Shown here: positions 14,793 to 19,420 of the stretch, piece by piece
How the letters are laid out: every line of letters starts with the position of its first letter
Numbering within the stretch: the stretch's first letter is position 1
Assembly (NCBI RefSeq): GCF_036067295.1
Contig: NZ_CP107954.1
Span: forward strand, 2,666,001-2,730,000
Direction of reading: 5' to 3'
From: Kribbella sp. NBC_00382
GTDB lineage: Bacteria > Actinomycetota > Actinomycetes > Propionibacteriales > Kribbellaceae
Length of the DNA: 64,000 nucleotides
Notes under the pieces: model-generated
Told to the model about the DNA's origin: nothing
Seen by the model: only the letters and a program-made list of their open reading frames with translations
Database searches by the model: none
Position numbers and translations under genes: made by a program

Positions 14793-15773
14793 TCAGCTAC
14801 AGGTTCCGTCGCACGGTTCGACCCAGGCGGTGCCGCAGCCGCTCGGGCGGTATTCACAGTTTCCGGGGTAGCAGTGCAGGTCTCCGCACCAACCATCCGT
14901 GGTAGCGCAGGGGCAGGTGTCCACGGTGCCGGTTCTCGCCGTCTGGGTCCGTGCGGCAGGGGCGGGGCCGAGAGTCGCGATCGCGGCGTACGCCTCCGGC
15001 TTGCCGAATGCTTCGATCGCCGCGTCCCTCAGGGCGCGGAGTCTCGTCGTGTCGGCGGACCGCCCGGCCTGCGCCGGTTCCCAGATCTCGTGCCGGGCGA
15101 CGAGGGCACGGGCCTCGTCGAGGACCCTGTGCTGTTCGGGAGTAAGGCTGGGCCGGGCGGCGCGGAACTGATCGAGATGGGCCGTCCACAGCCGGCTGCG
15201 GACCTCGGGCGCGGAAGCGGTGAAGATCTCCCGACGGAAGGTCAGCGGATACTTCGCGAAGGTGTCGTAAGTATCGGGCAGGGCCGCCCGGTTTACCGCG
15301 ACCCAGTCACGGGCCGATTGCTTCTCGATGTCGGCGAAGGCAGGCATCGTGCCGGTCAGGGCCATGCCTGCTATGACGCCAACCCCACCCGACAGCCGCA
15401 GGAAGTGCGCCCGGCTTAGCTGCGCCGTACCGGTCGGGGCGCCCGGTAGTTCATCGGCCCGGCCGTCAGCGCGGCGGCGAAGCCTCCCCAGTGCCTGGAT
15501 GACCCGGGCGCTCGCGGCCAGCCCGAGTCGACGGGCGAGTGGAACCGCGATCGCACGCCCGGTCCATGCCCGGACCCGATCGCCGTCCACCCGCAGCAGG
15601 GTCGGTGCCCACACCGGGTCAGGGCCCAACGCCCGAACCCGGAGGGTTTGTACGTCGGCGTCCCCCAGCGGTCTGATCTCCAGACCCGGTCCGGATGCTT
15701 CCGCAACCGCTTCGGACACACTGGTGCACGTTCCGCACGATGCGTCGAACGCAAGAATCCACTGCTGAACCAT
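14793..15773 (-). CDS. Fulvocin C-related protein: thiol domain + TM + eight-Cys bacteriocin-like tail
   Basis: 326 residues in four parts. Residues 1-100: a thioredoxin-like domain with C13-GT-C16 (FDASCGTCTSV). Residues 119-147: a Tat-like or membrane segment (RAHFLRLSGG then VGVIAGMALTGTMPAFA). Residues 155-235: the conserved domain of fulvocin C-related proteins (WVAVNRAALPDTYDTF, YPLTFRREIF, RSRLWTAHL). Residues 285-326: a Cys-rich tail with eight cysteines (287, 289, 296, 301, 306, 313, 321, 325) and SGCGTAWV, close to the TPTGCGTGWV of Myxococcus fulvus fulvocin C as I recall it. ATG at 15773 has AAAGG at 6 nt. No transporter or maturase is adjacent. Activity as a bacteriocin is inference. 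Confidence 0.85.
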   Translation of the reverse strand: MVQQWILAFDASCGTCTSVSEAVAEASGPGLEIRPLGDADVQTLRVRALGPDPVWAPTLLRVDGDRVRAWTGRAIAVPLARRLGLAASARVIQALGRLRRRADGRADELPGAPTGTAQLSRAHFLRLSGGVGVIAGMALTGTMPAFADIEKQSARDWVAVNRAALPDTYDTFAKYPLTFRREIFTASAPEVRSRLWTAHLDQFRAARPSLTPEQHRVLDEARALVARHEIWEPAQAGRSADTTRLRALRDAAIEAFGKPEAYAAIATLGPAPAARTQTARTGTVDTCPCATTDGWCGDLHCYPGNCEYRPSGCGTAWVEPCDGTCS

Positions 15774-15799
15774 GGGCATCCTTTCTCGTCTCAGCCGAT

Positions 15800-15968: not shown

Positions 15969-16643
15969 TCAGGCTTGGTCGAGCAGATGGCGAAGGTTGC
16001 GCAGCTCGAGGTACTCGTTCTCGACGTAGTCGCGGTGCGGCCGTCGCACGTCGTCTCGTGCGAGGTAGTCGCGTACAGCCTGCTCGGCTGCCTGGATGTT
16101 GCCCGTGGCGAGCAGGAGGTCGGCTACGTCGAGTGCTGCTGCCGGCGTCATACCGAGTTCTTCTTCGTCGCCTGCCTGGAACTTGTCGAGGATGACCTGT
16201 CGGTTCGTGAACTGACCGAGCCAAGTCAGTCCCATGTCTCGCATGGCGTCTATCGCCTGCTCCTGGGATGGCTCGAAGTCGAGCGGCCACCACACGTCGT
16301 TCTGCTCTGGCATCAGTTCGCCAATGCGCTTTCTGAGCTGACAGTCGTAGTCGTTGATCCAAGACGAGCGGGGTGGCCCGTCGCGATCCATCTCGGGGAC
16401 GAACACGCCTAGGTTGATGGTGAAGAGTCCATGCATGTTGACCCTGATGCCCGCCAAGACGTCGGGTCGCCCCGATGGGTCGTAAGATCCCATCTGGAAG
16501 TTGACCAGGTGCACCAGCCCATCCTCGACGCGACGATTGAAGGTGTGGCGTCGCTTCTTGAAGCCCGCCGACTTCAGCAGCGGCGCGGCGACCGCAACGA
16601 TTTGCGCCATTGCCTCAGCAGTCGGTGTCGATGACATGCGCAT
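15969..16643 (-). CDS. DUF4304 domain protein
   Basis: 224-residue soluble protein. The N-terminal 150 residues fit DUF4304: LLKSAGFKKRRHTFNRRV near residue 22 and VHLVNFQMGSYD, then FTINLGVFVPEM. The last 60 residues add a helical part with a tetratricopeptide-like look (ALDVADLLLATGNIQAAEQAV). DUF4304 occurs in proteins near toxin-immunity loci, but no biochemical role is known. ATG at 16643 is taken; ATG at 16637 is equally possible. It is transcribed in the same direction as the fulvocin-like gene, 195 bp upstream of it. Confidence 0.8.
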   Translation of the reverse strand: MRMSSTPTAEAMAQIVAVAAPLLKSAGFKKRRHTFNRRVEDGLVHLVNFQMGSYDPSGRPDVLAGIRVNMHGLFTINLGVFVPEMDRDGPPRSSWINDYDCQLRKRIGELMPEQNDVWWPLDFEPSQEQAIDAMRDMGLTWLGQFTNRQVILDKFQAGDEEELGMTPAAALDVADLLLATGNIQAAEQAVRDYLARDDVRRPHRDYVENEYLELRNLRHLLDQA

Positions 16644-16784
16644 AGCGTTCCGTGACGCAGTTGCTGTGACAAGTCGCCCAAGATCTCCAGCAGCACCGCA
16701 GGATTAGGGATCAAGCTGGATGTCTGTGGTGGTTCGGGAAAGCCCTCGCTCTTGCTGTGTTGGGCCGTCGATAGCATCGGCGGC

Positions 16785-17516
16785 ATGGCGACTCGGCTTG
16801 TTCAGATCAATATGAAGGCTCGGGATGATTCCGCGCTGGGTGGGTTTTGGGCCGAGGCGGTGGGGTGGAGTGTCTCTAGTGAGGGGCCTGGGGTTACCAA
16901 TCTTGAGCCTGAGGGGTTTGTTTACCCCGATCCTGTTGCTGTCTGCGTCGACCTTGTTGTCTCGGCGGAAGCCAAGACGGTGAAGAACCGTGTGCATGTT
17001 GACCTCGCGACCAGATCCTCGGGCCATCAGGCGGAGGTGGTTGCGCGGCTTGAGGGGCTTGGGGCGACGCACGCCGACGTGGGGCAGTGGGACGTGCCGT
17101 GGGTGGTTATGGCTGATCCTGAGGGGAACGAGTTTTGTGTGTTGGACTCGCTCTATGAGGACACCGGGCCGATCGCGAAGGTGGTGGTCGACTGTGTTGA
17201 TCCGCGAGTTATGGCTCGGTTCTGGGGTGAGGCTATGGACTGGGTTGTGCACGAGGTGACCGACGACAAGGCGGTACTGCGGTCCGCTAAAGGCGTCGGG
17301 CCGTATCTGGAGTTCCGCCGGACGCCCGATGTGAAGACCGTGTGGAATCGGGTCCATCTCGACGTGCGCCCTTACCCAGGGGACGATCCGGAGGCTGAGG
17401 CGGCCAGGCTGCGGGGGCTCGGTGCCACCGTCATCGACCTTGGGCAGAGCGAGGTCCACTGGACGGTGCTCGCCGACCCGGAAGGTAATGAGTTCTGCCT
17501 CCTGTCGCCAAGCTGA
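16785..17516 (+). CDS. Two-domain VOC (glyoxalase-like) protein
   Basis: 243 residues with two vicinal-oxygen-chelate halves. Each half ends in the same motif (VVMADPEGNEFCVL at about residue 110 and TVLADPEGNEFCLL at the C-terminus) and carries KNRVHVDL or WNRVHLDV, the metal-side strand. These proteins are often annotated as glyoxalase or bleomycin-resistance-like; substrate unknown. TAGCAT (16772-16777) is 7 nt before the ATG, with no ribosome site, so it is probably leaderless. Confidence 0.88.
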   Translation: MATRLVQINMKARDDSALGGFWAEAVGWSVSSEGPGVTNLEPEGFVYPDPVAVCVDLVVSAEAKTVKNRVHVDLATRSSGHQAEVVARLEGLGATHADVGQWDVPWVVMADPEGNEFCVLDSLYEDTGPIAKVVVDCVDPRVMARFWGEAMDWVVHEVTDDKAVLRSAKGVGPYLEFRRTPDVKTVWNRVHLDVRPYPGDDPEAEAARLRGLGATVIDLGQSEVHWTVLADPEGNEFCLLSPS

Positions 17517-17537
17517 CGGCCTCCAATTGGCCTGAGG

Positions 17538-18356
17538 GTGGGGTTGGATGGGTGGGTGGATGGCCAGGTCAGTGTGGGTGGGCGGGTTCTTCGGTTTTGT
17601 TTGTATGGGCCGGTGGGTGGGGTGCCGGTGGTTGAGTTGTATGGGACTCCTAGTACTCGGTTGCGGCGGCCTGATCAGGTGGCGGCGATGGAGGAGAGTG
17701 GGGTTCGGGTGTTGATGGCGGATCGGCCTGGGTATGGCGGGTCTACTCGGCAGCCGGGGCGTACTGTCGCTGATTTTGTGCGGGATGTTGAGGTTCTCGC
17801 GGACAGTCAGGGATGGGAGCGGTTCGCGGTGGTGGGTGGGTCGGGTGGGGGGCCGCATGCGTTGGCTTGTGCGGCGCTTTTGGCGGAGCGGGTTACCCGG
17901 TGTGCTGTGCTCTCCGGGGTTCGGCCGCGGGTTGTGACGCTGCCGCCGGAGGAAGATTTTCGGGGACAGCTCAAGCAGCTTGGCTCCGACATCTTGGCGC
18001 AGGTTGAAGCAGGCGGGCCTGAGTATCCGGGAGCGCCACCCGGGCCGCCGGCTTGGGATGACCCGGATGCCCGGGCTCGGCTGATGACGACGTTCGCGGA
18101 CAGTCTCGATGGCTGGTACGACGATCAGGTCGCTCTCTCTCAGCCGTGGGGGTTCGCCCCGGAGAGCATCGGCGTCCCGGTCGGCATTTGGTACGGGACG
18201 AACGACGAGTTCGTTCCCGAGGACGATGCACGGTGGCTACTTGAGAACATTCCTGGCGCGCAGGGCCATCAGTACCCGGGCGGTCACCTTCCCGGTATCG
18301 CGACCCTGAAGGACATCCACCAGTGGGTCAGCTGTCAGGTGAGCCACGAGGCGTAG
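17538..18356 (+). CDS. Alpha/beta hydrolase
   Basis: 272 residues. The nucleophile elbow is GGSGGGPHA (serine near residue 100), with an oxyanion strand before it (VELYGTPSTR), an acid at GTNDEF near 221 and a late histidine (YPGGHLPG). The protein resembles the lipase/esterase-like hydrolase_6 group; substrate unknown. The start is uncertain: GTG at 17538 is given, and TTG at 17544 lies behind GAGGGTGGGG. The last 22 bases overlap the convergent mraY gene. Confidence 0.82.
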   Translation: MGLDGWVDGQVSVGGRVLRFCLYGPVGGVPVVELYGTPSTRLRRPDQVAAMEESGVRVLMADRPGYGGSTRQPGRTVADFVRDVEVLADSQGWERFAVVGGSGGGPHALACAALLAERVTRCAVLSGVRPRVVTLPPEEDFRGQLKQLGSDILAQVEAGGPEYPGAPPGPPAWDDPDARARLMTTFADSLDGWYDDQVALSQPWGFAPESIGVPVGIWYGTNDEFVPEDDARWLLENIPGAQGHQYPGGHLPGIATLKDIHQWVSCQVSHEA

Positions 18357-19420
18357 AAGATGCCTAGGCCGGTTGCTACGAAGATTCCGGCGATGATCCA
18401 GAAGCGGATCACTACGGTGACCTCGTCCCAGCCGAGGTGTTCGAAGTGGTGGTGGATGGGGGTGATTCGGAAGATGCGGCGGCCTGTGCCGGTGAGTCGC
18501 CTGGTGAGCTTGAAGGTGATCATCTGAAGGATCACCGACATGGTCTCGAGGACGAACAGTCCGGCGACGACCGTCATCAGGAGTTCGGTGCGGGACATGA
18601 TCGCCAGCCCGGCCAAGGCGCCGCCGATGGCTAGGGAGCCGACATCGCCCATGATGATTCGGGCGGGCTTGGCGTTCCACCAGAGGAAGCCGACACAGGC
18701 TGCAGCGATGGCGGCCGAGAAGACCGCGAGGTCGAGAGGGTCGCGTACCTGGTAGCACTGCGACTCCACCAGCGTGGGCCGCGAGGAGTCGCACAGCTGG
18801 TTGTTCTGCCAGACGTTGATGATCGTGTACGCGCCGAAGATCAGAGCCGAGGAGCCGGCGAGTAGGCCGTCGGCACCGTCCGTGAGGTTGGCGCCGTTGG
18901 AGGTCGCGGCGACGATGAACCAGATCACCAGCAGGACCACGATCAGCGGCAGCTTGATCCACCAGTCATGAGTGGTGGAGATGTACTGCGAGGCCGGCCT
19001 GACACCGCGGTCGTCGGCGAAGAACTGCGTGGCCAGGACCCCGAAGACGAGCGCGACCAGCGTCTGACCCGCCATCTTGGCTCGGCTGCTCAGACCTTGG
19101 TTGTTCTGCGTGTAGACCTTGATGAAGTCGTCGAGGAATCCCACCACCCCGCAGCCGAGGAACAGCAACATCAGCAGCCACGCGCTGGCACTCGGCCGAC
19201 CACCGGTCAGGATCGTTGCCACCAGGTACGCAGCAGCGGCACTCAGCAGGATCACCAGACCGCCCATGGTCGGCGTACCCCGCTTGACGTGATGCGTCGT
19301 CGGTCCGTCGTGCCGGATCGGCTGGCCGAAGCCGTGACGGACGAACCACCCGATGGCGATCCGGGTCCCCAGCAGCGAGCAGAACACCGCCAGCCCGCCA
19401 CTCAGGAGTATTGCCCGCAC
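18335..19420 (-). CDS. mraY: Phospho-N-acetylmuramoyl-pentapeptide-transferase (MraY), stand-alone
   Basis: 361-residue polytopic enzyme transferring phospho-MurNAc-pentapeptide from UDP to undecaprenyl phosphate, giving lipid I. All catalytic motifs are present: KRGTPTMGG, FLDDFIK with the Asp pair, NLTDGADGLL, MGDVGSL and ITPIHHHFE. About ten TM helices are visible. GTG at 19420 follows GAGAGGGG by 9 nt. No other wall gene (murE, murF, murD, ftsW) is nearby, so it is not the division-cluster copy unless that cluster is split. A paralogue with specialised expression is the simplest reading. Confidence 0.93.
   Translation of the reverse strand: MRAILLSGGLAVFCSLLGTRIAIGWFVRHGFGQPIRHDGPTTHHVKRGTPTMGGLVILLSAAAAYLVATILTGGRPSASAWLLMLLFLGCGVVGFLDDFIKVYTQNNQGLSSRAKMAGQTLVALVFGVLATQFFADDRGVRPASQYISTTHDWWIKLPLIVVLLVIWFIVAATSNGANLTDGADGLLAGSSALIFGAYTIINVWQNNQLCDSSRPTLVESQCYQVRDPLDLAVFSAAIAAACVGFLWWNAKPARIIMGDVGSLAIGGALAGLAIMSRTELLMTVVAGLFVLETMSVILQMITFKLTRRLTGTGRRIFRITPIHHHFEHLGWDEVTVVIRFWIIAGIFVATGLGIFYASWLT

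Follow-up and report, generated by a model that had tools for sequence, protein, structure and literature searches.

A fulvocin C-related protein of Kribbella with a CxxC head and an internal Tat-like segment: a candidate modular precursor of a disulfide-rich peptide

One gene of Kribbella sp. NBC_00382 raises the question of why a thioredoxin-like CxxC domain should be fused to a small eight-cysteine peptide. The gene was found in the window (the whole stretch of 64,000 nucleotides of contig NZ_CP107954.1 that was analysed), where open reading frame and translation place it on the minus strand, running from 15773 to 14793 and encoding 326 aa, and it is present in one copy in the genome. The ATG at 15773, the second of two, was taken as the start codon and gives the 326 aa, an in-frame ATG at 15779 also being possible; the stop codon lies at 14793-14795, and a sequence GAGAAAGG at 15787-15780 was noticed by eye 6 nt ahead of the ATG at 15773. 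The gene and its parts are as follows.

14793..15773, minus strand: complete precursor gene, 326 aa (open reading frame and translation; K. sindirgiensis protein 92% identical)
15483..15773, minus strand: thioredoxin-like head, residues 1-97 (AlphaFold2, Foldseek, PDB profile matches, one cluster of 42)
15726..15737, minus strand: CxxC, C13-G-T-C16 (translation; CxxC in 45/45 heads covering the region)
15333..15422, minus strand: internal Tat-like export segment, residues 118-147, with SRAHFLR, hydrophobic run and AFA (motif count against shuffles)
14964..15329, minus strand: middle domain predicted to be helical, residues 149-270, without cysteines (the NF033852 match starts inside it; all-helical in AlphaFold2)
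14796..15236, minus strand: match to NF033852 (fulvocin_rel), residues 180-326 (profile search)
14796..14921, minus strand: fulvocin C-like tail with eight cysteines, residues 285-326, presumably the mature peptide or its core (alignment, HMM, BLAST)

The fulvocin C-like tail

The window protein gave a single NCBIfam match at E up to 1, which was to NF033852 ("bacteriocin fulvocin C-related protein"). Residues 180-326 aligned with the whole model (profile positions 1-150 of 150, E 2.8e-36), and the score of 125.6 bits passed the curated cut-off of 35. The Pfam search of the protein returned a chance match only (E 0.11), and residues 1-97 matched no NCBIfam or Pfam model. The tail of 42 residues (285-326) was found to contain eight cysteines and to end with GCGTAWVEPCDGTCS, and CGTC occupies residues 13-16, both just as the first-pass annotation had described them.

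The same annotation had related the tail to fulvocin C of Myxococcus fulvus and proposed an alignment of the two as a check. The 45-residue fulvocin C sequence used in all comparisons is a provisional one. With this provisional sequence, the window tail showed 45% identity over 40 aa (BLAST, E 8.8e-5), and the tail of L027 from Streptomyces goshikiensis showed 51% over 45 aa (BLAST, E 1e-7); 14 of 18 tails matched it by BLAST at E up to 10, and 11 of 18 at E up to 0.01. An HMM of the 18 intact tails scored the provisional fulvocin C at 37.2 bits, a value reached by 0 of 5000 shuffles with the cysteines held fixed (mean 6.4, maximum 20.8). The provisional fulvocin C itself matched NF033852 at profile positions 108-148 with an E of 1.1e-6 and 29.5 bits, which is below the cut-off of 35. 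The eight-cysteine tail could be aligned over its length, and the stretches CST and GCGT-W, as the provisional letters give them, are shared with the family profile. The likeness exceeds the cysteines, and the proposed relation held: the tail is related to fulvocin C beyond its cysteines, the letters of fulvocin C being provisional.

A further question had been whether the cysteine tail is conserved or more variable than the rest of the protein. In a set of 17 intact, non-redundant proteins that includes the window's, seven of the eight cysteine columns were kept in 17/17 and the remaining one in 16/17. The mean pairwise identity in this set was 0.50 for the head, 0.43 for the signal segment, 0.36 for the middle domain and 0.38 for the tail, and it fell to 0.23 in the tail when the cysteine columns were removed. 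Judged from these alignments, the scaffold of the tail is constant and the residues between the cysteines are variable. Between the window protein and that of K. sindirgiensis, dN/dS was 0.31 overall and 0.17 in the tail, few changes underlying both values. In the AlphaFold2 model of the full protein, pLDDT was below 50 at residues 100-150 and 272-326 (linker and tail), and the middle domain was all-helical, its block having a pLDDT of mostly 65-91 with a dip to 43.

Distribution and architecture of the family

The nearest relatives in the genome collection were found in Kribbella sindirgiensis (92% identity), Actinoallomurus (48%), Sinosporangium (39%) and two Streptomyces (34 and 37%). Ten Streptomyces plasmids also carry a homologue; in seven of them it is annotated under the family name, and the other three are unannotated. 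NF033852 matched in 4/38 genomes of the genus, 7/293 of the order (two spurious), 13/394 of the class and 2/198 of the phylum (one spurious), and in 22/200 genomes of one actinobacterial family (19 above the cut-off), these genome sets overlapping and the window genome being counted wherever it is a member. Phages gave no match and viral contigs none. Weak matches at L006, L007 and L025 were read and rejected as chance. The family is patchily spread, as is expected of accessory functions.

It had been remarked that a bacteriocin carrying its own oxidoreductase would be unusual; the fusion to a CxxC thioredoxin-like domain turned out not to be peculiar to this genome. The loci fetched contained 35 distinct middle-domain open reading frames, of which 25 had at least eight cysteines after the domain, the number of these cysteines being even in 24 of the 25. 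When L013 and L111, which are cut by a sequence end, were left out, the head was present in the same frame in 22 of the 23 uncut middle-domain frames with a Cys-rich tail, a count that starts from the middle domain and not from the head. The order of head, Tat-like segment, middle domain and Cys-rich tail therefore appears to be family-wide, the fulvocin part having already been named by NCBI.

The one exception was L004 (genome G023, of the genus Kribbella), which has a signal-like segment, the middle domain and an eight-cysteine tail. None of the frames of the 17 kb read contained a head, so that L004 either does without one or is a damaged copy. The other ten middle-domain frames have four cysteines or fewer. 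Three of them, L021, L022 and L023 of one genus, have kept the CxxC head with four tail cysteines and lost the export motif, so that loss of tail cysteines and loss of the motif coincide; this may point to ongoing decay or to another function. The remaining seven are headless, namely the partial L119 and six lone middle domains in six genomes, with neither head, signal-like segment nor Cys-rich tail (L010 at 2467, L024, L114, L115, L117 and L118). In Sinosporangium album a lone middle domain directly follows the full-length gene.

The CxxC head and its other cargo

AlphaFold2 (six sequences) predicted a thioredoxin-like fold for residues 1-106 with a pLDDT of 84.8 and a pTM of 0.79. The best Foldseek matches of the head were PDI/thioredoxin domains at E 3.4e-3 to 2e-2, none being below 0.001, and the fifth of them was the "bacterocin transport accessory protein" 1zma of S. 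pneumoniae (E 7.9e-3); the model of the full protein also matched thioredoxin/PDI domains (best E 9.5e-3). VIA-align of the head gave Z of at most 5.8 with many thioredoxin-superfamily rows among the best 50, and 1zma was not among these 50, which excludes nothing. A profile of 17 heads searched against the PDB found thioredoxins in 11 of 13 rows, all weakly (best E 0.057). From these models and matches a thioredoxin-like fold is evident, though no closer kinship is. DCC1-like thiol-disulfide oxidoreductases (PF04134) also have a thioredoxin-like domain with a DxxCxxC pattern; the window protein gave no match to PF04134 at E up to 1, and nine other head proteins gave two weak matches of 17.6 and 19.4 bits, below the cut-off of 27.8.

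The CxxC was found in 45 of 45 head proteins that cover the region (in 44 within the first 30 aa, in L062 at 31-34), a count that is favoured by the search itself, as the profile that retrieved the heads was itself made from CxxC heads; the 46th, L013, is cut by its contig and stands outside the count. The dipeptide between the cysteines is of 20 types in 44 proteins. A proline was invariant in 17/17 aligned heads at what is taken, from its position, to be the cis-Pro site.

Searches with the head profile gave matches in 18/394 genomes of the class, of which 16 remained, in 13/198 of the phylum, of which 11 remained, and in 15/39 genomes of one family including Rubrobacter radiotolerans (L026, identical to L054). 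Among the 16 remaining class genomes, G639 (L046) has a lone head with no in-frame cargo. Weak head matches at L048, L049, L063 and L064 were judged by eye to be DCC-like or ordinary thioredoxin-like proteins and not precursors. There were 46 distinct head proteins; once L013, L038, L046, L058 and L059 had been set aside as incomplete, the remaining 41 comprised 18 intact fulvocin-type proteins (including that of the window), 3 degenerate fulvocin-type proteins and 20 others. Six further head proteins and new fulvocin-type ones, obtained from later family searches, were read and kept outside these counts.

The 20 others, which come from Rubrobacter relatives, other actinobacteria and a Thermomicrobium plasmid, have a similar Tat-like segment and C-termini unlike fulvocin; their last 100 residues contain 7 to 18 cysteines in 17 of the 20, two in L067 and L068 and none in L062. 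BLAST clustering at E <1e-4 of proteins longer than 250 aa, the cut L013 included, placed the heads in one cluster of 42 and the regions after residue 145 in eight (22, 9, 4, 2, 2, 1, 1 and 1), the clusters being single-linkage ones between which distant kinship is possible. Four head genes lie within 20 kb in genome G657, and two of these paralogues, L056 and L069, show an identity of 97% in the head as against 22% beyond the signal. L069 further shares an identical 80 bp upstream with L067/L068 of another genus, along with 73% identity in the head and 14% after the signal. Cargo exchange behind a fixed front end should look like this, and on such sequence patterns the CxxC head with its signal-like segment appears to be a portable module carrying other, mostly Cys-rich cargo.

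Ten of the non-fulvocin tails gave nothing meaningful against NCBIfam, and 12 whole non-fulvocin proteins gave Tat-signal models, one thioredoxin-like match (E 0.077) and otherwise chance matches only. Two non-fulvocin head proteins are publicly annotated as "hypothetical protein".

Some tails drew notice in their own right. The non-fulvocin tails seemed "halocin C8-like", an impression from pattern only. L062 has the same CxxC head and signal-like segment followed by a Peptidase_M23 end (E 7.7e-10), and L106 is alike by eye, so that the front end is not confined to small Cys-rich peptides. The cargo of L067 and L068, with its two cysteines in the last 100 residues, contains a hydrophobic stretch (FGCASAIGVALVSNAIGIAKILKIRAAI...), which we take to be reminiscent of sporulation-delaying-protein toxins, and two small membrane proteins follow L067.

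The signal of the window protein reads S120-R-A-H-F-L-R126, followed by a hydrophobic segment and AFA at 145-147; having one arginine only, it does not conform to the twin-arginine form (S/T)RRxFLK. A loose Tat-like motif ([SGTDN]RxxFL[KR] or near) was present in 17/18 intact fulvocin-type proteins, 18/20 other head proteins and 0/3 degenerate ones, the expectation from shuffles being 0.7 for the fulvocin-type set and 0.5 for the others. The strict form, with the second Arg/Lys, was present in 12/18 intact fulvocin-type proteins and 6/20 others; the second Arg/Lys is missing in the window protein, 5 other fulvocin-type proteins and 14/20 of the others. One protein, L057, passed the NCBIfam Tat model (17.6 against a cut-off of 16.7). 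Going by its letters, the window signal may function like a Tat or a Sec signal. A hydrophobic stretch and [AVST]xA followed the motif in 18/18 fulvocin-type proteins, in all other types and also in the 3 degenerate ones, by a loose test without shuffled control in which, for L067 and L068, the tested region fell on a later hydrophobic stretch.

The genes next to the head genes were also compared. A small multi-TM frame (60-260 aa, at least 2 predicted TM segments, same strand, start within 400 bp downstream) follows 13/20 non-fulvocin genes vs 17/177 background genes (Fisher p 7e-8), the background being called genes of the same loci, which may include some head genes. Such a neighbour is as expected of a bacteriocin with a candidate immunity gene. 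Six of eight of these small membrane proteins had no match in Pfam and two had weak ones below the cut-off; at L086 an ABC-2 permease was recognised with an ATPase-like gene beside it. Subtilase-like (S8) genes lie at a distance of two genes from the head gene in L026/L088 and in L089, whereas the one in L031 is three genes upstream; they are put forward only as candidate processing proteases, because halocins are said to be matured by proteolysis (PMC12893001). Six annotated plasmid stretches named no modifying enzyme.

After the fulvocin-type genes, a small membrane frame was seen in 1/18 cases vs 14/271 in the background, which is no excess, and after the degenerate ones in 0/3. No conserved neighbours of fulvocin-type genes beyond those of close relatives were found in 25 loci with a crude gene caller; L029 and L081 of these are the same stretch, and since the precursor went uncalled in L011, L029, L072 and L081, gene maps around it were obtained for 21. 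This lack of conserved neighbours, together with a tail about as conserved as the middle domain, would suit a membrane-bound redox or signalling protein whose Cys-rich tail is a permanent extracytoplasmic domain that is never released, the likeness to fulvocin being one of ancestry only. We regard such a protein as improbable, since the [AVST]xA after the hydrophobic run in all 18 fulvocin-type proteins (by the loose, uncontrolled test), the patchy distribution with 4/38 genus genomes, and the reported isolation of fulvocin C as a free peptide (cited in PMC8708641) all argue against it.

Proposed role of the head, known systems and surroundings of the gene

With moderate confidence we take the window protein to be a precursor of modular build that would give rise to a secreted antibacterial peptide of fulvocin C type, rich in disulfides, and whose head would handle the thiols of its own cargo before export. 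The order of parts would be a thioredoxin-like CxxC domain, an internal Tat-like segment ending in AxA, a cysteine-free helical domain and the eight-cysteine peptide. The head would stay cytoplasmic during export and would keep or form the correct cysteine pairing of the cargo in cis, a role like the one proposed in trans for separate proteins such as PedC. Export by Tat or Sec and a signal peptidase cut at AFA-D would then leave the head behind, and the tail would be freed by a protease. The helical middle domain would be a prodomain and possibly serve self-protection in cis, which is suggested because the fulvocin-type genes are without a neighbouring candidate immunity gene, and by analogy with HalI.

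The first-pass annotation had supposed that the thiol domain helps to fold the bacteriocin or is released from it. This survives in part: that the head serves a disulfide-rich secreted peptide is made more likely by its occurrence, together with the signal-like segment, ahead of several unrelated, mostly Cys-rich C-termini. Against the proposed precursor stand the headless L004, the CxxC kept in L021-L023 with four tail cysteines and no export motif, the Cys-poor cargo of L062, L067 and L068, the M23-type ends of L062 and L106, the varied CxxC dipeptide, the weak fold matches, the second Arg/Lys lacking from so many of the Tat-like motifs, and an AxA test that the degenerate proteins pass as well.

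Several of these points would equally suit an inert leader, that is, a head acting as a thioredoxin-like platform for recognition or targeting, with the disulfides formed outside the cell by general oxidases. Some RiPP precursors have enzyme-derived leaders, and the head is as portable as a leader, occurs on cargo with few or no cysteines (L062, L067 and L068), varies in its CxxC dipeptide and is absent from L004, where the tail is intact. An inert fold would need neither the two cysteines, which are kept in all 45 proteins across unrelated cargo (the bias of the CxxC profile applying here), nor the proline invariant in 17/17 heads, and we consider an inert leader rather unlikely. We give very little weight to a head that merely holds the tail reduced and inactive inside the producer instead of oxidising it: the position of the head before the signal-like segment would put it on the cytoplasmic side, in a reducing compartment, but a candidate immunity gene beside 13 of the 20 heads of other cargo types speaks against such holding.

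Returning to a head that acts on the thiols of its cargo, we tentatively propose, at somewhat below even confidence, an undescribed precursor class. In it a catalytically active thioredoxin-like leader and an internal Tat-like signal would form a universal front end. Behind it, recombination would exchange disulfide-rich bacteriocins that are unrelated to each other, fulvocin-like ones as well as several unnamed families, and a small membrane immunity protein would go with most of the non-fulvocin types; the cargo would be folded in the cytoplasm and the foldase discarded at signal cleavage. If this is true, searching for the CxxC head and reading past the signal would be a route to disulfide-rich bacteriocins that have no family model; apart from fulvocin, the head search brought up seven C-terminal clusters, and most of their members (13/20) have a candidate immunity gene. 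Nature would also offer here a precursor that includes its own foldase and sheds it on export, a design usable for the production of disulfide-rich peptides, and the maturation of fulvocin C-like peptides would become directly testable in soil actinobacteria.

The known systems share some of these parts. NF033852 covers residues 180-326 only, so that the CxxC head lies outside the model. The NHLP/Nif11 families of RiPP leaders also join a conserved enzyme-derived leader to exchangeable and often Cys-rich C-termini; their precursors accompany modifying enzymes and Gly-Gly cleavage, and they differ from the window protein, whose leader keeps the CxxC and is followed by a Tat-like segment. Halocin C8 has many cysteines, and its precursor ProC8 has an N-terminal signal and is not known to have a thioredoxin-like head, whereas the window protein has an internal signal and a head. 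One Tat-exported precursor (ProC8/HalI) gives rise to an immunity part and a C-terminal peptide, according to PMC11509114 and PMC12893001, and HalI protects against halocin C8 in cis (PMC11509114). The accessory thioredoxins of PedC/Bta type (pediocin PA-1 and others) likewise pair a thioredoxin-like protein with a disulfide-bonded bacteriocin, but PedC is encoded separately, in an operon that also contains an ABC transporter, whereas in the window protein the head is part of the precursor itself and lies before an internal signal-like segment. In PMC4919988, PedC is described as raising the potency of pediocin, disulfide formation being the authors' speculation. In the literature searched, no description was found of a conserved CxxC head or of its occurrence on unrelated cargo. 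What is already known is the NCBI name for the fulvocin part; what appears to be new is the conserved CxxC head common to unrelated cargo, and the chance of a new precursor class is fair.

Some features around the gene in the window may be recorded as well. About 190 bp upstream of the precursor gene and on the same strand, 15969-16643 (minus) encodes a DUF4304 protein (E 1.3e-17) with a weak TPR match. A long cysteine-free frame at 16704-17858 (minus) is antisense to a frame at 16752-17516 (plus) that is glyoxalase-like by eye, and is probably no gene. A link between MraY and the precursor was dropped, as MraY was absent from the other loci fetched by then and only this genome's two copies were seen. 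The second complete MraY gene lies at 18335-19420 (minus; 301.8 bits); the nearby list of open reading frames shows no further obvious cell-wall genes, and the other strong copy of the genome, 55% identical to it, lies at C1:5800628.
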